From the NCBI RefSeq assembly GCF_900116205.1, contig NZ_FOZS01000004.1, forward strand, positions 62,001-126,000: a stretch of 64,000 nt of DNA. The letters run 5' to 3'. The notes beneath the pieces were generated by a model that saw only the letters and a list, made by a program, of their open reading frames with translations, was not told where the DNA came from and ran no database searches. This document shows positions 8,394 to 53,435 of this stretch, in pieces; position 1 is the first letter of the stretch; every line of letters begins with the position of its first letter. Made by a program: the position numbers and the translations under genes. This DNA comes from Halostagnicola kamekurae (GTDB lineage Archaea > Halobacteriota > Halobacteria > Halobacteriales > Natrialbaceae).

Positions 8394-9404
8394 TCACCTA
8401 AATTTCCGATACCGATCGATCAGGAGGTTCACGCCGTAGGATCCGTTCGTGATGGTAAACTGCGATCGAAGCTCCGGGTTGAACTTCGCCTTATAGCGGT
8501 TGATACTCGGCACACCCGCCCCGACGAGGTCGTACCGTTCGAGCCCGTTTTCGGCCCCATCCCGAATCACGTGCCAGTCCAGTACGTCATTGATCGAGAC
8601 GTCGACGTCCGCGTCGGGTTTCACCCCGCCTTGCCACCGGTAGCGCGTCGTCTCCGATTCGACGACGAGGATGCCCCCGACGAATTCGCCGTCGACGCGG
8701 CAGACGTACGGTCGTATCGCGCCGTCTGGCAGCAACTGATATAGCGACCGGGCGAACCCGTTGTTCATCTGGTAGGACTGGCCTTGACTCTCGTACCGCG
8801 CTCTGACCTGGTCGACGATCCGGTCGATGTCGTCGATCGTGCCCTCTTCGACGACGTACCGGTCCTCCGGGGCGTTGCGGATGTTAGATCGCGCGTCGCT
8901 ACTGAACCGATCCAGCAGGTCGTCGGTGGACCTGTCGAGATCGAGTACGTAGGTGTATCCGGGCTCGACCTCGTAGCCGTTCCAGGTGAACGGCCGAACG
9001 TCGGGAAACTCCGCCGCGACGAACTTGGTATAGACGGGCGATAGCTCCGACTCGATCCACTCGAGACAGCCCTCGAGGAACCGTTTCGTTCGGCGATCGG
9101 CCTTTCGCTGTTTGAGCTTGTCGACGTTCAATAGCGCCGGCCCGAGATAACACGACCACGAGAACGGCGCCGGCGAAAAGACGCCCGTAATCGGCCCCTT
9201 GTTGTACTCGAAGACCGGGAAGAGCCCGACGGCTTCCTGGCCTTTGAACCCCGCGAGCAGGTGCGGTGTGGTCTCCGAGTCCGCGGCCTGCAACTCGAGG
9301 GCTTCGGCTCGGAAGAACGGGTTCGTCCCCGGCGACCGTTCGACGTACCGATTCCACTCCTCTGCGTCCGTCTCCGTGTCGAGAACGCGGATATCGATAC
9401 CCAT
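8394..9404 (-). CDS. FemAB/GNAT-fold peptidyl- or acyl-transferase-like protein
   Basis: A 336-residue cytosolic protein starting MGIDIRVLDTETDAEEWN and containing VGLFPVFEYNKG, a long basic/acidic middle, and the C-terminal GNAT-like block GEFVGGILVVESETTRYRWQGG, then NDVLDWHVIRDGAENGLERYDLVGAG. This arrangement matches the FemAB-like (BioF2-like) branch of GNAT proteins. Bacterial members transfer amino acids or acyl groups to cell-wall precursors; archaea lack peptidoglycan, so here a surface glycan or lipid-linked sugar is a more likely target. Its start lies one base from the stop of the phosphatase-superfamily gene upstream, so the pair is co-transcribed. The donor and acceptor are unknown. 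Confidence 0.8.
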   Translation of the reverse strand: MGIDIRVLDTETDAEEWNRYVERSPGTNPFFRAEALELQAADSETTPHLLAGFKGQEAVGLFPVFEYNKGPITGVFSPAPFSWSCYLGPALLNVDKLKQRKADRRTKRFLEGCLEWIESELSPVYTKFVAAEFPDVRPFTWNGYEVEPGYTYVLDLDRSTDDLLDRFSSDARSNIRNAPEDRYVVEEGTIDDIDRIVDQVRARYESQGQSYQMNNGFARSLYQLLPDGAIRPYVCRVDGEFVGGILVVESETTRYRWQGGVKPDADVDVSINDVLDWHVIRDGAENGLERYDLVGAGVPSINRYKAKFNPELRSQFTITNGSYGVNLLIDRYRKFR

Positions 9405-41944: not shown

Positions 41945-42787
41945 TCAATACGTCTCCACTTTTCCGTCGGCATCATCTTCGTCGTCTGCTGTAGCAAGAT
42001 CGCACGCCGGGAGGCCGAGATCGTTCTCTGCCGAAGCAATATCGTACAATCGCTGACCCTGGAGTTTGGGCACGACGGTACGGCTATCGAACGCGAGGGT
42101 GTACTCGTAGAGGTCCGTTCGCTTGATCTCGGGTTTGTTCTCGTACTTCGGTCCTTTGGCGTACTGGACGACCTGTCGAAACGCCTCGCGCCGTTCGTCC
42201 GTGATCGCGATCCCGTGGAGGTGATGACCGATGACCAGCGTGCCGACGGTGTCCTCTGGCGAGGGTTTCCCGTTCGATCCGGCGGCGACGAGGTACGTCT
42301 CGCGGTCGCTCTCCCGTAGGTGCTCGGCGACGGCCCTGCCGTTGGTCAGGCCGCCGACGTAGATGTCGACATTGTCGCCGCCGGCGAGTCGAAGGTCGGT
42401 GATCGCGTTCCCGCCATTCGTCGACGTCATCGCCGTCGGCCGCCCGTCGACGTCTACGTCCTGGACGAAACTCGGCGAGTTGAAGAAGTCGTATCCGGGT
42501 TCGCCCTCGTAGTCGGGGCCGGAGCCGCCACCGATCTTCGCTCGAGGATGGGCCGCTTTGAATTCGGGTTCGTTCCCGCGTTGTTCGGTAACGTAGATGT
42601 ACTCCGCACCGTTTGCGAGAAGTTCGGGAACGGTCGTCGAAAACTGAGCGACGTCGACGACCACGTAGTTTCCGGGACCCGGATCGTCGGGAATCGCTGC
42701 CCGCGAGGGGATGATCGTCTCGAGTAGTTTCGATTCCAGCGTGCTATCGGCGAGTTCGTCCATGCCGATGGCTTCGCGCCCGCTCAC
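41945..42787 (-). CDS. comB: 2-phosphosulfolactate phosphatase-like protein (ComB)
   Basis: A 280-residue protein of the ComB family, which removes phosphate from 2-phosphosulfolactate in coenzyme M synthesis in methanogens. The family blocks are present: YVVVDVAQFSTTVPELLANGAEYIYV (usual DVLRATTT), GGGSGPDYEGEPGYDFFNSPS, and AMTSTNGGNAITDL (T-x-NG), later AAGSNGKPSPEDTV. The first block reads DVAQFSTT, departing from the DVLRA(S/T)T consensus. Haloarchaea do not make methane, so the true substrate is unclear; a sulfonate pathway is a possible link to the sulfoquinovose synthase at 15715. A GTG at 42787 fits the TATATA box at 42808; ATG 42763 is an alternative. Confidence 0.78.
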   Translation of the reverse strand: MSGREAIGMDELADSTLESKLLETIIPSRAAIPDDPGPGNYVVVDVAQFSTTVPELLANGAEYIYVTEQRGNEPEFKAAHPRAKIGGGSGPDYEGEPGYDFFNSPSFVQDVDVDGRPTAMTSTNGGNAITDLRLAGGDNVDIYVGGLTNGRAVAEHLRESDRETYLVAAGSNGKPSPEDTVGTLVIGHHLHGIAITDERREAFRQVVQYAKGPKYENKPEIKRTDLYEYTLAFDSRTVVPKLQGQRLYDIASAENDLGLPACDLATADDEDDADGKVETY

Positions 42788-42805
42788 AATAGGATAACTA
42801 AGAGT

Positions 42806-42814
42806 GATATATAG
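42806..42814 (-). promoter_or_regulatory. TATA box of the comB-like gene
   Basis: GATATATAG, nearly symmetrical, is centred 23 bases upstream of the GTG at 42787 on the minus strand, suggesting a leaderless transcript. Confidence 0.5.
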
Positions 42815-42898: not shown

Positions 42899-43342
42899 TT
42901 AGTTATCGGTCTGTTGTTCACCAGTTATTTCGTTGAACAGAGAATCGACCCTGATCTCGATTTCATCGCGGATCTCCCGTACCGTCCCGAGGTCCTTTCC
43001 GTGGGGGTCAGCAAGCCCCCAATCACGGTTTTCACCGCTCCATGTGGCTGGACAGACTCCTTCTGCAGAACACCCCATTGTAATTACGTATTCACAGTCT
43101 TGGAGATCGGTGTGTGTGATCTCTCGAGGCGTTCGAGTACGGAGGTCGATATCTTTCTCTTGCATAACCTCAACCACTTCCTCGTGGACGGAATCGGCTG
43201 GCTGCGTGCCACCAGTTGTGATCTCGATGGACTCGGCTAACTCTCGGACGTTCCGCTCGCGCTCACCGAAAGCAGACGCCATCTGCGAACGTCCAGCGTT
43301 CTGCACACAGACGAACGCGATACGTGTAGTTTCCTTACTCAT
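42899..43342 (-). CDS. arsC: Arsenate reductase (low-molecular-weight phosphatase type)
   Basis: A 147-residue enzyme reducing arsenate to arsenite. The P-loop CVQNAGRS (Cys12 to Arg18, Ser19) is the phosphatase-type active site, and CEYVITMGC supplies Cys83 and Cys91 in the positions used by thioredoxin-linked ArsC (82 and 89 in Staphylococcus). The Asp in DPHG further on matches the general acid. It is last in the arsR-acr3-arsC operon; 17 bases separate it from acr3. Confidence 0.92.
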   Translation of the reverse strand: MSKETTRIAFVCVQNAGRSQMASAFGERERNVRELAESIEITTGGTQPADSVHEEVVEVMQEKDIDLRTRTPREITHTDLQDCEYVITMGCSAEGVCPATWSGENRDWGLADPHGKDLGTVREIRDEIEIRVDSLFNEITGEQQTDN

Positions 43343-43359
43343 GATGTATTTGCTGTTGA

Positions 43360-44523
43360 TTAGTCGTCTTCTGAGACGGCTGTCTTGGTCGAATTAACTA
43401 TCTGCCCCGTCTCAAAGCTGTCCCAATCGAACGCACGCTGGAAGTACAGTGCCACATGGACGAGTGCGAGGAGGACAGGGACTTCGATGAGCGGGCCAAC
43501 GACGGTCGCAAAGGCAACACCAGATCCGACGCCGAAGACGGCGACCGAGACGGCGATCGCCAACTCGAAATTATTCGACGCCGCTGTGAATCCGATTGCG
43601 GTCGTCGTTGAGTAGTCTGCACCAATACCGCGACCCATGCCAAAGCTCACGAGGAACATCACTATGAAGTAAATCGTCAGTGGGACGGCAATCAATAGGA
43701 CATCTGCGGGAGCCGCGACAATGTTCTCGCCCTGCGTGGCGAACATTACAATGATGGTGAATAGCAGTGCGATCAGCGTCAGTGGATCGATTTTCGGGAT
43801 AAGTTCGTCATCGTACCAGTCCTCGCCCTTCGTTCGCGTTCCGACGTACCGGGTGAGGAACCCGCCTGCAAAGGGAATGCCAAGGAAAATCACGATCGCT
43901 TTGAACACTTGTATCGGCGTGATATCGAAGGTCGTAATCCCGGCAACAAGCGTCTCCATGCCCAATAGCGGCGGAAGGAAGAGAGCAAAGAACCAGACGT
44001 ACACTCCGTAGGTGATGATCTGGAAGAGACTATTGAACGCGACTAAGCCGGTCACGTACTCAGTCGATCCGTCCGCAAGTTCGTTCCAGACCAGCACCAT
44101 CGCGATACACCGGGCCATTCCGATGAATATCAGTCCGAGGAAGTACTCGGGACGAGCCGGTAGGCCGGGCACAAGACCGCTGAAGAAGACGACTGCAAGC
44201 CCGAACATTAGCGTCGGGCCGATCAGCCAGTTCTGAATGAGGCTCAACCCGAGAACCCGCCAGTTACTGAATACAGTTGGAAGCCGTGAGTAGTCTGCCT
44301 TCGCTAACGGGGGGTACATCATCAAGATGAGACCGATCTCGACAAGGTGGAGGTTCTGAATCGGTTGGGTCACTGACGGAGCGGCATAGCCGAGACCGAC
44401 ACCAATTGCCATCGCGCCAAAGATCCAGACAGTGAGATACTTATCGAGGAAGTCCATCGACCGTGGATCGCCACAGCTCTCGCACCCGCAGTTCGGGCCG
44501 TGTTCGTGGGTCGTGTTACTCAT
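43360..44523 (-). CDS. acr3: Acr3-type arsenite efflux permease
   Basis: A 387-residue membrane protein with ten helices that exports arsenite. The essential Cys lies in GMARCIAMVLVWNELADGS in helix 4, followed by EYVTGLVAFNSLFQI; helix 9 shows TAASNNFELAIAVSVAVFG. These are diagnostic Acr3 motifs. The N-terminus HEHGPNCGCESCGDPRS carries a His/Cys-rich cluster that could bind arsenite or a metal. Codons are less GC-biased than in flanking genes. Its start overlaps the arsR stop by eight bases. Confidence 0.94.
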   Translation of the reverse strand: MSNTTHEHGPNCGCESCGDPRSMDFLDKYLTVWIFGAMAIGVGLGYAAPSVTQPIQNLHLVEIGLILMMYPPLAKADYSRLPTVFSNWRVLGLSLIQNWLIGPTLMFGLAVVFFSGLVPGLPARPEYFLGLIFIGMARCIAMVLVWNELADGSTEYVTGLVAFNSLFQIITYGVYVWFFALFLPPLLGMETLVAGITTFDITPIQVFKAIVIFLGIPFAGGFLTRYVGTRTKGEDWYDDELIPKIDPLTLIALLFTIIVMFATQGENIVAAPADVLLIAVPLTIYFIVMFLVSFGMGRGIGADYSTTTAIGFTAASNNFELAIAVSVAVFGVGSGVAFATVVGPLIEVPVLLALVHVALYFQRAFDWDSFETGQIVNSTKTAVSEDD

Positions 44524-44914
44524 CGCTCACGCTCCCTTCGAGGACTGTCACGAGCGCGACAGCGCGGTTGGTCGCTCGGTATTTCTTCCAGCGTCCGTCT
44601 TTCCGGCTCGAGACGAGTCCCGCCTCGACGAGTGCTGAGAGCGCGTGGCTGAGGCCACTCTCGGTCACATCGACGACAGCGTTCAGTTCGCAGACGCAGA
44701 GTTCCGCTTCTGCGGCGACGAGAACGCGAACGAGTGTATAGCGTGTCTCGTTGGCCAGCGCTGAAAGAACGTCGAGTTCGGTGTTGACCTGTTGCGCTCC
44801 AATCGCTTCCTCGAGCGTGCTGAGTTCGTTGAGCCGTTCTTCGACATCTTCGCTGCGACACTCTCCGAGTTCGTCTTCGAGATATCGTTGCAGTCGTTCC
44901 GTCGCTTGTGCCAT
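44516..44914 (-). CDS. arsR: ArsR-family repressor
   Basis: A 132-residue winged-helix regulator. ELCVCEL at about 71-77 is the arsenite-sensing cysteine motif, and TESGLSHALSALVEAGLVSSRKDGRWKKYR is the recognition helix and wing. The N-terminal 40 residues are an unusual acidic helical extension. ATG 44914 (MAQATERLQRYL) is preferred to the in-frame codon at 44932 since the operator occupies that stretch. First gene of arsR-acr3-arsC. Confidence 0.92.
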   Translation of the reverse strand: MAQATERLQRYLEDELGECRSEDVEERLNELSTLEEAIGAQQVNTELDVLSALANETRYTLVRVLVAAEAELCVCELNAVVDVTESGLSHALSALVEAGLVSSRKDGRWKKYRATNRAVALVTVLEGSVSDE

Positions 44915-44919
44915 CGATA

Positions 44920-44970
44920 ATTGATTGAGCAATCTCTCAATTAATCCTTCCGGTAGAAAGCAACTATATC
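44920..44970 (-). promoter_or_regulatory. ars operon promoter and operator
   Basis: ATTGATTGAG (44920-44929) and CTCAATTAAT (44936-44945) form a near-perfect palindrome around CAATCT. On the minus strand, GATATAG at 44964-44970 is the probable TATA box. Transcription should begin near 44939, inside the palindrome, so ArsR bound there would block it. Confidence 0.7.
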
Positions 44971-45274: not shown

Positions 45275-45320
45275 ACTAGTCAACAGAACAACTATCTAAG
45301 TGGAGTCCGTTCATAGACAT

Positions 45321-45992
45321 ATGGGCGATCGTATCACGTTGCTTTACGAGAACGACCATTTTCGGACGATCGTTGGTACAGTTGGTATACTGGTTCTTCT
45401 CATAGCTTTCACCGAGATGACGCTCCAAACGGCTATTCCGTTATTCCTCATGTTTGGTCTGATGATGGCACACGATGTCGCCGATGAGTTCTACGACTTA
45501 CCTGAGGGAACGAACTGGTTCGTCTACGGGGCGTCTATCGTCGCTGTCGGGGTATACTGGATGGTTGTGTTCCCCCTTCCGTGGGTCGGCGGTCTCTTCG
45601 GTCTCGTTGGGCTCTGGTTCGTCTTCGATGGCGTGACGACCATCCGATACGGGCCGTCGCGGACGACGCCGGGATATATGTCCGACCTCGAAAACGAGCA
45701 GTGGGGAGAGACAATGCTCCGGATGCAGACGTTGAACGTCATCTATCAAGCTTTGAAAAACGCTGACGGCCCACGGACCGCCCCGGAGCTTGCTACTGAT
45801 CTCGACCTTACTGAGTCACGGATCGAACGAGCCCTCGAGTTTCTGGAACACGAAGGCCGTATCGAACACGAGAAGGGCCACTATCGTGCCGATCCGCCCC
45901 GGTGGGGTAGATTGACCCCCGTCGTCCAGTTCGTTGTCTGGCTCCCGCGTCGAGTCAGTCGGCCGTTTCGTCGAGTAACCGCCAACGCATAG
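45321..45992 (+). CDS. Membrane protein with C-terminal winged helix
   Basis: A 223-residue protein. Residues 15-120 hold four hydrophobic helices; about 135-195 form a winged helix (LNVIYQALKNADGPRTAPELATDLDLTESRIERALEFLEHEGRIEHEKGHYR). The membrane plus DNA-binding arrangement suggests a one-component membrane regulator. ATG 45321 follows ACTATCTAAG by about 25-30 bases. Base composition at third positions is mixed. It lies beside the ars operon, divergent from it. Partner and signal unknown. Confidence 0.75.
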   Translation: MGDRITLLYENDHFRTIVGTVGILVLLIAFTEMTLQTAIPLFLMFGLMMAHDVADEFYDLPEGTNWFVYGASIVAVGVYWMVVFPLPWVGGLFGLVGLWFVFDGVTTIRYGPSRTTPGYMSDLENEQWGETMLRMQTLNVIYQALKNADGPRTAPELATDLDLTESRIERALEFLEHEGRIEHEKGHYRADPPRWGRLTPVVQFVVWLPRRVSRPFRRVTANA

Positions 45993-46340: not shown

Positions 46341-47150
46341 TTACAGAACGAATGCGATAGCGGCGACGAGGGTCAACGAACCGCCGAAAAAGACGATGTC
46401 GATCGGTTGCACTCGGAGGTCTGCTAGCTGGAGATTCTTGCTCGCCTCGTCGTTCAGCGAGTGCGAGAACCCTCTCGTCTCCATCGCTTCGACGGTCACT
46501 CGACTGCGTTTTGCGACGTTGAATATCATGGGATAGAACGCCCGCACCGAGAGTTTCAACAGGTAGGCGTAGTGACGCCAGCGCAGTCGTCCCGGGGAAT
46601 CCGGTGCGACGCTTCGCAACCGGTAGGCGTTCACCAGATCGTGGTACTCCTCAAACAACACCGGCAGCATTCGGTAGCCGTACGTGATGAGAAAGGTGAA
46701 CTGGCGCGGAACGCCGAGACTGGCGAGTCCGCGGGCGAGCGTCTTCGGCCCCATACTCGAGAAGACGGCGAGGCTCGCCACCGAGATGATCGTCAGCTTC
46801 AGCGTAAACGGGATCAGCGCCTGAATTGCGGCGATCGCATCGCCGGTAACAGCGGTTACGACCGCGTACGATGCGAGCGTCGAGACCACGCTGAACCCCA
46901 TCACCCCGACGAGAAAGAGGCTGACTTGCGAGAGGACCGCGAGCACAGAGACGAACGCTAATAGCCCAAGCAACACGCCAATGTCGTAGAACAGCCACGG
47001 AATGAACAGGAAGACGAAGTACCACAGTAACAACACGCGCGGATCGAGGCGATGCAGAAACGATCCCTCGTTTTCGTAGGCCGTACGGAGCAAGTCGCTC
47101 TTGATCGCGTCGACCGACGCGGCGTCTCGAAGGCCGTCTAAATAGCTCAT
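46341..47150 (-). CDS. ecfT: ECF transporter transmembrane subunit (EcfT)
   Basis: A 269-residue membrane protein that couples the ATPase to the substrate-binding subunit in energy-coupling-factor importers. About five helices are seen. The coupling motifs are in SLGVPRQFTFLITYGYRMLPVLFEEYHDL (first arginine-rich motif) and AMETRGFSHS, the A-x-x-x-RG signature. FLHRLDPRVLLLWYF at the N-terminus is also typical. The start at 47150 overlaps the fused ATPase stop by four bases. Confidence 0.88.
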   Translation of the reverse strand: MSYLDGLRDAASVDAIKSDLLRTAYENEGSFLHRLDPRVLLLWYFVFLFIPWLFYDIGVLLGLLAFVSVLAVLSQVSLFLVGVMGFSVVSTLASYAVVTAVTGDAIAAIQALIPFTLKLTIISVASLAVFSSMGPKTLARGLASLGVPRQFTFLITYGYRMLPVLFEEYHDLVNAYRLRSVAPDSPGRLRWRHYAYLLKLSVRAFYPMIFNVAKRSRVTVEAMETRGFSHSLNDEASKNLQLADLRVQPIDIVFFGGSLTLVAAIAFVL

Positions 47151-48895
47151 CGTGCGCCCTCGGTCATCGCTGATCGTGACCCGTCGGTGACATCGAGTCG
47201 ATCGACGAACGCCTCGACGGTCAACGGCGCAGGATCGAGGCCGAGTTCCGCGGCGAGTCGAACGACCTGTGGCGGATAGAGGTTCGCTCGCTCGAGGTCC
47301 TCGGGGTCCGCAAAGACGGTTTCTGGCGGGCCGTCGGCGATGACGTCGCCACCGTCGAGGACGACGACGCGAGTCGCCCACGAGGCGGCGAGTTCGAGGT
47401 CGTGCGTCGCGATGATCACGGTTTCGACGCGCGACCCGGCCCGTTCGACCGTCCGGCCGACCTCCTCACGGCTCGCGAGGTCGAGGCTCCCGGTCGGCTC
47501 ATCGAGAAGGATGATCGAGGGGTCGGTCGCCAATCCGATCGCCAGCGAGGCGCGACGTTGCTGGCCGACGCTCAAGAGCCGGCCGTCGCGGTCCGCGACC
47601 GCCTCGAGGTCGAGGAAGTCGATCACCTCGTCGACTCGCTCGTCCGTGTCCGGATAGTCCCTGTCCGCGAGGTAGTGGGCAATATCCGCCCGTACCGCAT
47701 CGTCGATGAACATCTCCTCCGGGTTCTGGTGGACGTACACGACGTCTTCGGCGAGTCGTTCGGGAAGGACCGTATCCGTGTCGATACCGTCGACGGTCAC
47801 AGTCCCTTCGTCGGGCGTTTCCAGTCCGGTTATCAACCGCAGGAGCGTCGATTTACCAGCGCCGTTGGATCCGAGGAGCGCAACTCGCTCGTCGGGATAC
47901 AGCCCGAGCGATAGGTCGTCGAGAACGTCTCGAGTACCGCTTCGGAGCGTCTGGTACGAGTGGGAGACGCCGTCGAAGGAGACGACGGGATCTGCGTTCC
48001 GATCGAGCGATCCGCTGCTTTCACTGGTCGTCGTTGGCATTTCCTCGGGGAGTAACTCCTCGAGTCGGTTGGTACCGGCCCGCAGCGTCACCGGTAGCCG
48101 TTGCTCGTCGAAGACGCGCTCGGCGATTCGTGTCACCTGGGGCGGATGGACGTCCTGTGACCGCAAGTCGCCCAGTCTATTGAGCGCTTTCTCGATGGGG
48201 AGCTTCCAGCTGACGGCCCCGTCTTCGACGAGAACGACCGACTCGCAGTACTCGGCGATGAATTCGGTCTGGTGCTCGATGGTGACGACGGTCTTACCCA
48301 GATCCTCGTTGAGCCGGGCGAGGTGGTCGTACGTCTCGCGGGCGTTGACCGGATCGAGCTGTGCGGCGGGCTCGTCGACGACGAGGATCTCCGGATCGAG
48401 CGAGAGCGACGCGGCGAGCGCAACCAAGTGTTTCTGCCCGCCCGATAGCTCCCAGACGAACCGGTCTTCGAGTCCGTCGAGCTCGAGCAAATCGAGCGTT
48501 CGATGAACCCGCTCGCGGTAGTCCTCCTTGCCGTAGTTTATCGGCGCGAACGCGACTTCCTCGAACACGGTCGGATTGACGAGTTGGTTGTCGAACTCCT
48601 GAAAGACGTAACCGACGTGTCGTGACAGTTCGGAAACCGAACTGTTCGGTACGTCCAGGCCTGCCACCGTAACTGTCCCTTCCATCTGTCCTTCGTAGAA
48701 GTGCGGGACGATCCCGTTGAAGGACTTACACAGCGTCGTCTTCCCGGAGCCGTTCCCGCCGACGACGGCGACGAACTCCCCGGGTTCGATCTCGAGATCG
48801 GCACCCGAAAGGACCGCGTCTTCGGCTCCGGGGTAGCGAAACGACAGGTCGTCGACGACGATACTCGCGTCGGTGGGTGAATTCGCCGTTCTCAT
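47147..48895 (-). CDS. Fused double ABC ATPase of the ECF transporter
   Basis: A 582-residue protein with two ABC domains in one chain. The first has Walker A GGNGSGKTT near 47-55, signature LSGGQKH and Walker B ILVVDEPA. The second, from about 310, has GSNGAGKST, SVGQQRR in place of LSGGQ, and IILLDEPT. So it replaces the separate EcfA1 and EcfA2. The second signature is degenerate (VGQQ), meaning one composite site may be less active. Overlaps of four bases on both sides link it with the S and T genes. Confidence 0.9.
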   Translation of the reverse strand: MRTANSPTDASIVVDDLSFRYPGAEDAVLSGADLEIEPGEFVAVVGGNGSGKTTLCKSFNGIVPHFYEGQMEGTVTVAGLDVPNSSVSELSRHVGYVFQEFDNQLVNPTVFEEVAFAPINYGKEDYRERVHRTLDLLELDGLEDRFVWELSGGQKHLVALAASLSLDPEILVVDEPAAQLDPVNARETYDHLARLNEDLGKTVVTIEHQTEFIAEYCESVVLVEDGAVSWKLPIEKALNRLGDLRSQDVHPPQVTRIAERVFDEQRLPVTLRAGTNRLEELLPEEMPTTTSESSGSLDRNADPVVSFDGVSHSYQTLRSGTRDVLDDLSLGLYPDERVALLGSNGAGKSTLLRLITGLETPDEGTVTVDGIDTDTVLPERLAEDVVYVHQNPEEMFIDDAVRADIAHYLADRDYPDTDERVDEVIDFLDLEAVADRDGRLLSVGQQRRASLAIGLATDPSIILLDEPTGSLDLASREEVGRTVERAGSRVETVIIATHDLELAASWATRVVVLDGGDVIADGPPETVFADPEDLERANLYPPQVVRLAAELGLDPAPLTVEAFVDRLDVTDGSRSAMTEGAR

Positions 48896-49743
48896 GGGGA
48901 TCGGCTCGCTCTAAACCAGACGATGCCGGCCACGACTGCGGAGAGGACGATGGGAACTGCCATGAACATCTGTCCGTACGTCTCGAGGAACGCGGGTTCC
49001 CAGATCACGTTGATGGCCCCGCCGGATTCGCTCGCTGCTTCGGCGGCGAGCGCAACGGGGAACGCGACGAGTATGGCCGCCAGCGCCGTGACGGAGAATC
49101 CGCTTCGCATCGACGCCCCGCGTCTCCCCTCGAACGGTTCCATCCCGAGCAACGGCTCGATTTTTCCGTGAAGCTTCGGATACAAGTACAACGCCGGAAT
49201 CACGCCGAAGACGATGCCCGTAATCGCCATCTGCGTGATGAAATCGACGCCCTCGAGCACGAGGACGCTCTCTGGCAGACCGGGAACCGCCTCGAGTTGC
49301 TCGACGCCGACGTACACCTTTCCGACGTCGATCCACATCGCGAGGAACTCCTCGAGCGCTTCCGCGAGGAAAACCACGATAGCCAACTGCGTGCTATTTT
49401 CGGGGTCTTGCAGGAGTTTCGCGGCAAAGTAATAACAGACAGGGATCAACAGCAATCCCTCCATGGCTCCCAGTCCGTCGAACTCGCCGAGCAGTATCTC
49501 ACCGAACACGATTTCGCCGACCGGGACCGCCAGCGCCGCCCAGTACGTCCGGAACAACAACACGAGCACGATCGGGATGAAGATGAACCCGCCGACTCCC
49601 AACTCGAGCGGCCCGAGCGAGAACTCCGGAAGGACCTCCGTGATGGCGTTTTGAAGCCCTGTGAGCGACATGACGAGTATGAATACCATCATGTCGTGCT
49701 TGCCGAGTTCGAATCGACTCCCCGTCGCTGTCGATGTACTCAT
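48892..49743 (-). CDS. ECF transporter substrate-binding membrane subunit
   Basis: A 283-residue protein with about seven helices, placed where ECF S components lie and longer than the usual 170-200 residues because of a C-terminal helical extension (SGFSVTALAAILVAFPVALAAEAASESGG). The loop LLGEFDGLGAMEGLLLIPVCYYFAAKLLQDPENSTQ may shape the ligand site. I cannot assign a known S family, so the ligand is unknown. It is the first gene of the operon and reads divergently from the catabolic operon at 49970. Confidence 0.75.
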   Translation of the reverse strand: MSTSTATGSRFELGKHDMMVFILVMSLTGLQNAITEVLPEFSLGPLELGVGGFIFIPIVLVLLFRTYWAALAVPVGEIVFGEILLGEFDGLGAMEGLLLIPVCYYFAAKLLQDPENSTQLAIVVFLAEALEEFLAMWIDVGKVYVGVEQLEAVPGLPESVLVLEGVDFITQMAITGIVFGVIPALYLYPKLHGKIEPLLGMEPFEGRRGASMRSGFSVTALAAILVAFPVALAAEAASESGGAINVIWEPAFLETYGQMFMAVPIVLSAVVAGIVWFRASRSP

Positions 49744-49788
49744 AGACGGTATAGTAGCTCCTGTAGTTGTATTTGAAATATTATAATT

Positions 49789-49861
49789 GTGGTACGTAAC
49801 GGGGCAGCGAACGTCTGTTCACTCCGTACCACGACCGATACGTATGTGTGGTATATACCAC
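49789..49861. promoter_or_regulatory. Divergent promoter region with GTGGTA/TACCAC half-sites
   Basis: Between the ECF operon and the isomerase operon lie GTGGTAC at 49789-49795, GTACCAC at 49826-49832 and a perfect palindrome GTGGTATATACCAC at 49848-49861, which also contains a TATA-like core. Upstream at about 49771-49788 is an AT-rich stretch that may be the promoter of the S-subunit gene. A single dimeric repressor could control both directions. Confidence 0.6.
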
Positions 49862-49969
49862 TCATAGTTCGACTTAACTATCGATTTAGTTATCGTCACA
49901 CTATGCAACCAGACGACGGCAAACGTCGAACGACGCAGTTGGATCGGCTCAGAGGAGGGACCGAGTCGG

Positions 49970-50755
49970 ATGTCTGAACCGACTCCTCGGTTCGGTGCTT
50001 CGATGGACATTCGATTCGCAGAAGACATTGGGGCATTTGCCGAATTTCTAACCGAACTGGGATTGGACCACGTCGAACTCCGCGCTGGGTATCTCGACGC
50101 ACGCGAGGACGGCCCCGCTCCAGAGATACTTCGAGACGTCGCTCGCACGTACGACCTGACCTACTCCGTCCACGCCCCCCATATCGATGTCGCGCCGGGC
50201 AATATCAACGACCAACTCCGATCGGCGGTCGTCGACGCCACGACGGAGGCACTCGACTTCGCCGCCGCCATCGACGCCGTTGGCGTCGTCGTCCACGGCG
50301 GAAGCGTACGAACACGGTATCCGGAGCGAGTCCACGCGTACGTCAGGGAACGTGCGGTCGAGACGATTCGTGCGTGCGCCCGTCACGCGGCCGACGTCGA
50401 CGTTCCGCTCTGTCTCGAGAACCAGCGCACGAGACGGGAGAAGCGCCGGTTCACCGCGACCCCGGAGCGTCTAGCGTCGTTCCTCGAGGCCGTCGACGTC
50501 GGGCCCGCAGCGCTCCGAATCACTCTCGACGTCGGCCACGCGAAGGCCAGCGGTATCGATTACGACCGTTTCGTCGATCGGTTTGGCGACCGCATCCATC
50601 TCGTTCACCTTCACGACAACGACGGGGAGACCGATGCCCACGATCCGTTACCCTCCTTTCGAGCGGTCGGGGAGTCGATCGGAGCGCCGTATAATATCCT
50701 CGAGATGAAATCGCTGGCCGATATCGAACGCTGCGTGCAAGCGGGTTCGCACTGA
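49970..50755 (+). CDS. Sugar phosphate isomerase/epimerase (AP-endonuclease-2 TIM barrel)
   Basis: A 261-residue TIM-barrel protein. Family features are HVELRAGYLDAR, LTYSVHAPHID, VVHGGSV, CLENQRTRR, ITLDVGHAKASG, LVHLHDNDGETDAHDPL and YNILEMKS; the Glu-Asp-His-Glu set fits a divalent-metal site of xylose-isomerase-like enzymes. The first gene of a four-gene run; the TIM-barrel lyase-like gene follows 177 bases later. Substrate likely a sugar or sugar acid. The ATG at 49970 fits the start of the barrel strand RFGASMDIRF. Confidence 0.85.
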   Translation: MSEPTPRFGASMDIRFAEDIGAFAEFLTELGLDHVELRAGYLDAREDGPAPEILRDVARTYDLTYSVHAPHIDVAPGNINDQLRSAVVDATTEALDFAAAIDAVGVVVHGGSVRTRYPERVHAYVRERAVETIRACARHAADVDVPLCLENQRTRREKRRFTATPERLASFLEAVDVGPAALRITLDVGHAKASGIDYDRFVDRFGDRIHLVHLHDNDGETDAHDPLPSFRAVGESIGAPYNILEMKSLADIERCVQAGSH

Positions 50756-50932: not shown

Positions 50933-51766
50933 ATGGAGTTCACACGCGAGGAATCAGTACGACGACTCGAGGAGACGGTTTCGAACGACGATCCGATTAT
51001 CGGCGCCGGTGCCGGAACGGGGATGTCGGCGAAGTTCGCCGAACGTGGCGGGGTCAACCTGCTGATCATCTACAACTCGGGCCGGTATCGGATGAACGGC
51101 CGAGGGTCGCTCGCCGGGTTGCTTCCGTACGGCGACGCCAACGAGATCGTTCTCGATATGGGACGGCAGGTGTTGCCGGTCGTGGAGGACACGCCCGTGC
51201 TGGCGGGGGTCAACGGAACCGACCCGTTCCGGAACATGGACGTCTTCGTCGAGGACCTCAAGCGACGCGGGTTCTCGGGCGTCCAGAACTTCCCGACAGT
51301 CGGACTCATCGACGAGGACAGCCAGTTCCGCCAAAATCTCGAGGAAACGGGAATGGGCTACGACGAGGAAGTCGAGATGATCCGGGAGGCCGCCGAGCAG
51401 GGCATGCTCACGTGCCCGTACGTCTTCACCGAGGAGCAGGCCCGCGAGATGACCGAGGCTGGCGCGGACGTGATCGTCTCGCACATGGGACTGACGACGT
51501 CGGGCGACATCGGTGCCGAAACCGCGCTCGATCTCGACGCGGCCGCTGAGCGAGTTCAGGCCCACCACGACGCCGCCAAAGACGTCGACGAAGATGTCCT
51601 CGTCATCTGCCACGGTGGGCCGATCGCCTGGCCGGACGACGCCGAGTACGTCTTGAACAACACCGAGGGCGTCGTCGGCTTCTTCGGCGCGTCGAGCCTC
51701 GAGCGACTCCCGACCGAAGAGGCAATCGAGAACCAGGCCAGCGAATTCAAATCGATCGAGTTCTAA
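50933..51766 (+). CDS. PEP-hydrolase-family TIM barrel (Tm-1 C-terminal half homologue)
   Basis: A 277-residue TIM-barrel protein of the phosphoenolpyruvate-hydrolase family (PF09370, from memory). DDPIIGAGAGTGMSAKFAERGGVNLLIIYNSGRYRM opens the barrel; MNGRGSLAGLLPYGDANEIV, VLAGVNGTDPF, GVQNFPTVGLID, and IVSHMGLTTSGDIGAETA follow. In plants this domain is the C-terminal half of the virus-resistance protein Tm-1. ATG 50933 starts MEFTREESVRRLEE; the longer frame upstream lacks conservation. Three bases separate it from the cupin gene. Biochemical role not firmly known. Confidence 0.83.
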   Translation: MEFTREESVRRLEETVSNDDPIIGAGAGTGMSAKFAERGGVNLLIIYNSGRYRMNGRGSLAGLLPYGDANEIVLDMGRQVLPVVEDTPVLAGVNGTDPFRNMDVFVEDLKRRGFSGVQNFPTVGLIDEDSQFRQNLEETGMGYDEEVEMIREAAEQGMLTCPYVFTEEQAREMTEAGADVIVSHMGLTTSGDIGAETALDLDAAAERVQAHHDAAKDVDEDVLVICHGGPIAWPDDAEYVLNNTEGVVGFFGASSLERLPTEEAIENQASEFKSIEF

Positions 51767-51768
51767 CG

Positions 51769-52212
51769 ATGACGGATACGCAAACGTACTTCGTCGAACC
51801 GGACGACGTCGAGAGCCTGACGTTCGATTGGGGGGTCCTCAAGTGGCTACACACTCCCGACACCACCGGCGGCGACCGCTTCAGCGCGGGCGTTGTTCGA
51901 CTCGAACCGGGGAAGGGTCACGAACGACACACGCACCCCGAGAGCAACGAGACCCTCTACGTCCTTCGCGGGGAGGGGAGACAGGAAGTCGGCGACGAGA
52001 CGCGCGAGATCGCGGCCGGCGAGATGGTGTTCGTCCCGGAGGGCGTCGAACACGGGACGGTAAACACCGGCTGGGAGCCGCTGGTTCTCCTGGCCGTCTA
52101 CGCGCCGCCGGGGCCGGAAGACGAACTGCGCTCGCTCCCCGAGTGCGAGGTCGTTCCCGCCGGCGAACCGCCGACCACCGGCGTCGCCGAACCGAGGGAC
52201 TCCGAGCCATGA
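51769..52212 (+). CDS. Cupin-domain protein
   Basis: A 147-residue single-cupin protein. GKGHERHTHPESNETLYVLRGEG is cupin motif 1, with His residues and Glu for the metal, and MVFVPEGVEHGTVNTG is motif 2. Such small cupins act as isomerases, lyases or dioxygenases. Placed between the two Tm-1-half genes. Its TGA overlaps the next ATG (ATGA). Confidence 0.88.
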   Translation: MTDTQTYFVEPDDVESLTFDWGVLKWLHTPDTTGGDRFSAGVVRLEPGKGHERHTHPESNETLYVLRGEGRQEVGDETREIAAGEMVFVPEGVEHGTVNTGWEPLVLLAVYAPPGPEDELRSLPECEVVPAGEPPTTGVAEPRDSEP

Positions 52213-53435
52213 GCGTCGTCATCGTCGGAACGCTGGACACGAAAACCGAAGAGATCGGCTTCGCCAGGGACGTCCTCGAGGCCCAGGGACTGGACGTTCA
52301 CATTGTCGACGCCGGCGTCATGGGCGAACCGGGATCGGCGGTCGACCCGGAAACGACCGCGAAGGAGGTCGCCGAGGCGGCGGGGACGACCCTCGAGAAC
52401 CTTCGCGAGGACGCGGATCGGGGCGAGGCGATCGAGGCGATGGGCGAGGGTGCGACCGCCATCGCCGAGCGACTTCACGAGGAGGGCGTCCTCGACGGCG
52501 TCCTCGGACTGGGCGGGTCGGGCAACACTTCGATCGCGACGGCGGCGATGCGGGCGCTGCCCGTCGGCGTCCCCAAACTCATGGTCTCGACGATGGCCTC
52601 GGGCGATACGGAGCCCTACGTCGGGCCCCGGGATATCGCCATGCTGTACTCTGTCGCCGATATCGAGGGGCTGAATCAACTGTCGCGACGGATCATCGCC
52701 AACGCTGCGCTGGCGATGTCCGGCATGGTCGCGAACGAACCCGACGTAGACGTTGAGGATCGGCCCACGATCGCCATCACGATGTTCGGCGTCACGACGC
52801 CATGCGTCCAGACCGCTCGCGAACGACTCGAGGAGAAAGGGTACGAGACGATCGTCTTCCACGCGACGGGGACCGGCGGACGGGCGATGGAGTCGCTCGT
52901 AGAGGAGGGCGTCGTCGACGGCGTGCTCGACGTCACGACGACCGAGTGGGCCGACGAGCTGGTCGGCGGCGTCTTGAGCGCCGGTCCGGATCGACTCGAG
53001 GCGGCCGGAGACGAGGGGATTCCACAGGTCGTCTCGACCGGTGCGCTCGACATGGTCAACTTCGGCCCTCGTGACTCAGTTCCCGAGGAGTTCGAGGAAC
53101 GCCAGTTCCACGTCCACAACCCGCAGGTGACGCTCATGCGGACGACGCCCGAGGAAAACGCCGAACTCGGGGAAATCATCGCCCAGAAACTCAACGACGC
53201 GACCGGACCGACCGCGCTCGTCCTCCCGCTCGAGGGCGTCTCGGCGATCGATATCGAGGGCGAAGATTTCCACGATCCTGAGGCCGATGAAGCGCTGTTC
53301 GATGCGCTGCGGACGACCCTCGGCGACGATGTCGAGCATATCGAAGTCGAAACCGACATCAACGACGATGTCTTCGCGGAGGAGCTCGCGGAAACCATAG
53401 ACGAGTACATGCGAGACGTCGGTCACGTCCCGTGA
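52209..53435 (+). CDS. UPF0261 / Tm-1-like ATP-binding protein
   Basis: A 408-residue protein matching the N-terminal half of plant Tm-1 (UPF0261). VVIVGTLDTKTEEIGFARDVL, GVLGLGGSGNTSIATAAMRALPVG, KLMVSTMASGDTEPYVG and the second-half PTIAITMFGVTTPCVQTAR with FHATGTGGRAMESL are the family's signature blocks; the glycine-rich loops bind ATP in the tomato protein. Last of four genes. With the TIM-barrel gene upstream it forms the two-part version of Tm-1. Normal cellular role unknown. Confidence 0.88.
   Translation: MSVVIVGTLDTKTEEIGFARDVLEAQGLDVHIVDAGVMGEPGSAVDPETTAKEVAEAAGTTLENLREDADRGEAIEAMGEGATAIAERLHEEGVLDGVLGLGGSGNTSIATAAMRALPVGVPKLMVSTMASGDTEPYVGPRDIAMLYSVADIEGLNQLSRRIIANAALAMSGMVANEPDVDVEDRPTIAITMFGVTTPCVQTARERLEEKGYETIVFHATGTGGRAMESLVEEGVVDGVLDVTTTEWADELVGGVLSAGPDRLEAAGDEGIPQVVSTGALDMVNFGPRDSVPEEFEERQFHVHNPQVTLMRTTPEENAELGEIIAQKLNDATGPTALVLPLEGVSAIDIEGEDFHDPEADEALFDALRTTLGDDVEHIEVETDINDDVFAEELAETIDEYMRDVGHVP

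Follow-up and report, generated by a model that had tools for sequence, protein, structure and literature searches.

A palindrome between divergent haloarchaeal genes overlaps a probable Pho-type promoter box

The window analysed in this work is a 64,000-nucleotide stretch of the genome of Halostagnicola kamekurae (assembly GCF_900116205.1, contig NZ_FOZS01000004.1), a haloarchaeon whose family includes Natrinema and Halovivax. Its relevant features are listed in Table 1. The ecfS, ecfAA and ecfT genes were assigned to an ECF importer on the basis of an S-component fold adjoining ATPase and CbiQ-type genes; the true start of ecfT is probably farther downstream than annotated. EcfS had no match in Pfam or PHROGs, and Foldseek alone found no PDB match at E ≤0.001. 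When the AlphaFold model of the protein (pLDDT 78.8) was given a structural second look, rows 1-20 (Z 9.4-14.2) held nothing but components of ECF or CbiMQO systems, with the best unrelated rows at or below 5.8. Judged from this model, EcfS has the S-component fold. It shares this fold and the adjoining A and T genes with the ECF vitamin transporters (S components ThiT, RibU, FolT and PanT), but differs from them in about 80 extra C-terminal residues, in belonging to no Pfam family and in its linked phosphatases.

Table 1. Features of the window discussed in the text (positions are those of the 64,000-nucleotide stretch)
Feature	Position	Strand	Basis or remark
comB-like gene (2-phosphosulfolactate-phosphatase family)	41945..42763	-	PF04029; accompanies ecfS in most genomes
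Pho-type box TATATATCACTCTTAG, comB-like gene	42798..42813	-	13-bp core 42798-42810; 22.0 bits, site in training set
ecfT, transmembrane T component (CbiQ family)	46341..47381	-	PF02361
ecfAA, double ATPase of importer	47147..48895	-	TIGR04520/TIGR04521
ecfS, substrate-binding S component of ECF importer	48892..49743	-	S-component fold by structural comparison
TTCAAATA, likely TATA element of ecfS	49770..49777	-	position and conservation; ecfS start codon 49743
TTATAAT, conserved upstream box of ecfS	49780..49786	-	related to the Pho-type box at most as a degenerate form
Half-site GTGGTA of spaced pair	49789-49794	strandless	not conserved
Half-site TACCAC of spaced pair	49827-49832	strandless	not conserved
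Reverse-facing near-copy TATATACCACACATAC, sharing the TATATA core	49842..49857	-	outer bases (TATGT, +) kept in seven genomes; putative function
24-bp dyad TATG-N5-TATATA-N5-CATA, possibly from two facing boxes	49843..49866	strandless	conserved in seven-genome alignment
Perfect 14-bp palindrome GTGGTATATACCAC	49848-49861	strandless	arms not conserved, core TATATA conserved
Pho-type box TATATA-CCA-CTCATAG, iso promoter	49852..49867	+	17.2 bits, comB-only matrix
CTTAAC, likely TATA element of iso transcript	49873..49878	+	CTTA kept in 7/7; function suggested by fixed ATG distance
Putative 24-codon upstream ORF before iso	49903..49977	+	stop overlaps iso start in window
iso, xylose-isomerase-like TIM barrel (AP_endonuc_2 family)	49970..50755	+	PF01261
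PEP-hydrolase-like, cupin and UPF0261 (Tm-1-like) genes	50933..53435	+	beside iso in this genome only, of 391

Of the 391 genomes of the class, 40 had a match to ecfS, as did 12 of the 125 genomes of the family. Its recurrent neighbours are phosphatase-type proteins (comB-like, PHP-domain and inositol monophosphatase); widely recurring beside it are the comB-like gene (36 loci) and the PHP-domain gene (17 loci), and a histidine-kinase-like gene occurs at 8 loci. No regulator gene was recurrent beside ecfS among the loci searched. To our knowledge, the organisms carrying this ComB-like family here are not expected to make coenzyme M. The comB-like gene of the window and ecfT are separated by arsenic-type genes (42899-44932) encoding a permease, an ArsR-family regulator and a phosphatase, of which we take the permease to be Acr3-like and the phosphatase ArsC-like. 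A membrane protein with a C-terminal winged helix (HTH_11; 45300-45992) is encoded between these genes and ecfT, and is not recurrent in other loci. In the congener (L089) comB directly follows ecfT.

On the other side of the gap, the best NCBIfam resemblance of iso is to CbiR, below the cut-off, and iso matches were present in 58 of 391 genomes. The original prediction had taken the genes on this side for a breakdown operon, which is doubtful in view of the restriction to this genome of the arrangement that places the PEP-hydrolase-like, cupin and UPF0261 genes next to iso. Among the 391 genomes, 99 have UPF0261, but this is the only one with an iso match less than 10 kb away from it (as compared by eye from the positions). 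Judged from gene order, the three genes are outside the conserved unit.

The gap between ecfS and iso is 226 bp long, bounded by the ecfS ATG at 49743 (-) and the iso ATG at 49970 (+). Both elements described in the original prediction, the perfect 14-bp palindrome with a TATA core and the spaced inverted GTGGTA/TACCAC pair, are present, and the spaced pair extends to 8-bp arms (GTGGTACG/CGTACCAC). The perfect palindrome GTGGTANNTACCAC occurs once in the 4.1-Mb genome of the host (0.07 expected, both strands); perfect palindromes of 14 bp number 10 in the whole window, and when the gap was dinucleotide-shuffled, one arose in 51 of 2000 trials. The GTGGTA/TACCAC hexamer is found four times in the gap, a number reached in 0 of 2000 shuffles, a result that has to be discounted because the hexamer was chosen post hoc; if any hexamer was allowed to reach four copies, 426 of 5000 shuffles did so. 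Palindrome and hexamers thus exceed chance weakly. The genome scan by which the palindrome was to be checked returned the single perfect copy and no clear regulon of the motif, as sites with up to two mismatches numbered 69 against 58 for the reversed control; as a regulon motif the palindrome was rejected.

Comparison of ecfS and iso match positions identified seven genomes with the divergent pair. Three of these (G005, G202 and G004) are closely related to one another, and the seven therefore represent fewer than seven independent lineages. Copies of GTGGTA/TACCAC in the other six gaps numbered 0, 0, 0, 0, 1 and 0, and none of the six, including that of the congener, contained a 14-bp palindrome; the congener reads GTACTATATACTCC at the position of GTGGTATATACCAC in the window. 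Mean identity (of 7) was 3.0 for GTGG and 3.5 for CCAC, but 7.0 for TATATA, 6.9 for CTCATAG and 6.8 for the left flank TATGT. All six columns of TATATA and the outer CATA were identical in 7/7; the first column of CTCATAG was kept in 6/7 and the remainder in 7/7, and the same was seen for the first and following columns of TATGT. Also constant in the alignment were the ecfS elements TATTTGNA and TTATAA and, farther downstream, CTTA.

These comparisons bear on the proposal that a single dimer binds the GTGGTA/TACCAC half-sites and controls both operons. The uniqueness of the palindrome in the genome and the presence of four hexamers within 226 bp speak for such an operator, but the arms are missing in 6/6 relatives, hexamer-blind shuffles reach such repetition in 426 of 5000 cases and near-copies in the genome lack clear enrichment, which makes the proposal very improbable. 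The alignment indicates that the GTGG/CCAC arms arose by coincidence in this genome. What stands of the idea of a shared operator is a genome-rare cis-element in the gap that recurs at a second promoter within this gene group, that of the comB-like gene. On the best reading, the original prediction would have found a regulatory site that is real, but on mistaken grounds.

The conserved signal is directional. It reads ATA-N3-CTCWTAG, lies about 47 nt 5' of a start codon and contains the right half of the palindrome; the 13-bp core at iso is ATACCACTCATAG (49855-49867). In the window the comB-like gene, about 7 kb from the iso gap, repeats the box upstream, and in comB-like promoters ATA at -47 and CTCTTAG at -41 are constant in position. 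The box is at -47/-48 in most comB promoters and at -48/-49 in iso, where the reference is the ATG of the upstream ORF. Two comB starts (L021 and L022) were called too far upstream, with the box reading -26 instead of -47.

A 13-bp matrix was trained on comB promoters only, and tested on unseen promoters. Of 50 loci searched, 40 had comB; these gave 36 distinct promoters, 34 after deduplication at 90% and 23 at ≥59% identity, and the last were used for training. The exact 13-mer is missing in 17 of the 34 deduplicated promoters, 10 of these 17 being among the 11 below 59% identity. All seven iso promoters scored 13.3-18.8 bits with this matrix, against a median of -8.8 for 301 control promoters, from which comB members only had been removed. 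The four top-scoring controls came from four other genomes and were all members of one family, inositol monophosphatase, encoded next to ecfS, with the box exactly at -47 (the assignment rests on PF00459 in the two genes tested); at the ecfS loci of these four genomes no comB-like gene was seen. A match at window position 9397 (16.7 bits) was rejected, as it is inside a coding sequence.

The short form ATA-N3-CTCWTAG occurs 7 times in the host genome (1.56 expected), two of the sites being those of comB and iso. In 18 other genomes there were 49 matches, of which 20 were comB or iso; 16 of the 18 genomes had at least one. For about two thirds of 28 inspected among the 29 remaining matches, no convincing gene was seen at a promoter-like distance.

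Between -28 and -25 the column profile of comB promoters has an AT peak resembling a TATA element; together with the constant box-to-ATG distance of comB and iso, this suggests leaderless transcripts. Transcription of comB would then begin at its start codon, and that of iso at the upstream-ORF ATG (49903). Alternatively, an iso transcript with a leader could use TATATA as its TATA box, with CTCWTAG as a repressor site downstream of it. The resemblance of TATATA to a TATA box and its retention in 7/7 genomes agree with this arrangement, but the second AT peak and the constant distances fit leaderless starts, and in Haloferax 72% of transcripts are leaderless (H. volcanii; accessible part of PMC4983044), so that we regard a leadered iso transcript as unlikely. 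The ATG of the putative upstream ORF is 42-43 nt past the start of CTCATAG in 7/7 genomes, the length of 24 codons being that in the window.

Since one exact box match lay before a phosphate-binding-protein gene, pstS loci were tested. Thirty loci were taken from a larger number of TIGR02136 matches listed in a search of 41 genomes, and 250 bp were scanned at each with no start codon chosen; the 292 controls had been purged of comB and inositol monophosphatase by peptide string. Scores of at least 8 bits were obtained at 25/30 pstS loci, compared to 1/30 on the opposite strand and 6/292 control genes. The corresponding numbers were 19/30, 0/30 and 2/292 at 10 bits, and 30/30, 10/30 and 32/292 at the laxer threshold of 4 bits. 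The box was mostly at -46 to -50, as measured from a start codon chosen here to maximise the score. In pstS the box reads ATAGNN(A/C)(T/A)CATAG, with a TATA-like element, ACTTA or TATTTA, downstream, and the box-to-TATA spacing is identical in pstS, iso (CTTA) and comB. The long form TATATANNNMWCWTAG occurs exactly three times in the host genome, before pstS, comB and iso (0.01 expected); the pattern was derived from these three sites, and its weight therefore rests on the absence of other matches. The box is also carried by a second pstS, a PhoU_div (DUF47) gene and a sugar-type solute-binding protein gene.

The position of the box, at that of a B recognition element and at fixed spacing to the TATA element, would also suit a general promoter element, such as the site of an alternative TFB shared by pstS, comB and iso with no phosphate regulator involved. 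For such an element the box is too rare, with 1 to 7 exact short forms in each genome searched and the long form only three times in 4.1 Mb, and the recurrent box genes cluster in phosphate-type functions; we consider this explanation quite unlikely.

Taken together, these results make it probable that the palindrome overlaps a haloarchaeal Pho-type box, TATATA-N3-CTCATAG, which drives iso and comB and possibly ecfS, with a PhoU-type regulator as the probable acting protein. The tie of the box to phosphate is a comparative one. Pho boxes in the pst promoters of Halobacterium salinarum (Furtwangler et al. 2010, as reported in PMC6560208) are described in the accessible part of that article as essential for upregulation. 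Like them, the present box would be a cis-element of haloarchaeal pst promoters tied to phosphate, and it occurs in pstS promoters across haloarchaea; the ECF importer neighbours, comB-like genes and iso do not appear among the members in that part of PMC6560208. The two boxes are likely the same.

The promoter arrangement and the genes concerned suggest how the box might act. The host genome encodes at least three fusion proteins of an AbrB/MazE-like part plus PhoU, one of which immediately follows phoU in a second cluster of pst-like genes. Upon phosphate shortage, a PhoU-type regulator of this kind would act at the boxes, whose constant spacing to the start codon and the TATA-like element downstream puts them in the position from which an activator could contact TFB and TBP. 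This would raise the expression of iso and comB. The ECF importer might respond as well, by way of the facing near-copy or of a degenerate box; the cell would then import and dephosphorylate either an organic phosphorus compound or the phosphorylated precursor of a vitamin. In bacteria, PhoB boxes precede pst, ugp and phosphatase genes. The haloarchaeal case would resemble the bacterial Pho regulon in using one box for phosphate uptake, organophosphate uptake and phosphatases, but differs in sequence, regulator family and promoter machinery, and in having an ECF-type importer in place of a classical solute-binding ABC system. On this evidence, an uncharacterised importer of the vitamin type would, with its partner enzymes, aid phosphorus scavenging.

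This would be a first physiological clue to the orphan ECF importer and the ComB-like phosphatase family. An unexplained palindrome would become a testable promoter code for haloarchaeal phosphate control, and the comB matrix can be used for regulon scans. A literature search, most subscription journals being outside its coverage, returned no paper in which a phosphate box of haloarchaea was connected with either an ECF importer or a ComB-like gene; novelty is therefore not proven.

For ecfS itself the evidence was weaker. The best copy in the ecfS promoter of the window (GTACCACAATTAT) scored -0.5 bits (control p 0.10), and the exact box was present in 0/16 close ecfS promoters. In the set of ecfS promoters (41, reduced to 35) scores were low, with the best 13-mer at -53 to -50 in 25/35 compared to 52/301 controls; a good copy of the box was found at a few ecfS promoters elsewhere (G160, G125). 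The 24-bp dyad may represent two facing boxes. Its distance to the TATA element of ecfS, about 65 bp, is unlike that of other boxes, and use of the dyad by ecfS is therefore a guess. We would tentatively extend the model to a haloarchaeal Pho regulon that includes the ECF importer, dedicated phosphatases and the TIM-barrel enzyme, and in which the symmetric double box of the Natrinema/Halovivax lineage (TATG-N5-TATATA-N5-CATA) serves both divergent promoters; this version is possible, though doubtful. As a genome motif with three mismatches the wide dyad was rejected, with 41 matches against 71 for the reversed control.

Two further genes with box-like sites were noted. A membrane histidine-kinase-like gene divergent from ecfS has such a site at -49 at two loci (L115:10711-11838, 11.3 bits; L026:4602-5723, 6.3 bits). 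In two Natrinema-type genomes (L185:1367-1379 and L190) a chemoreceptor (MCP) gene is preceded by an exact box, spaced as in a promoter.
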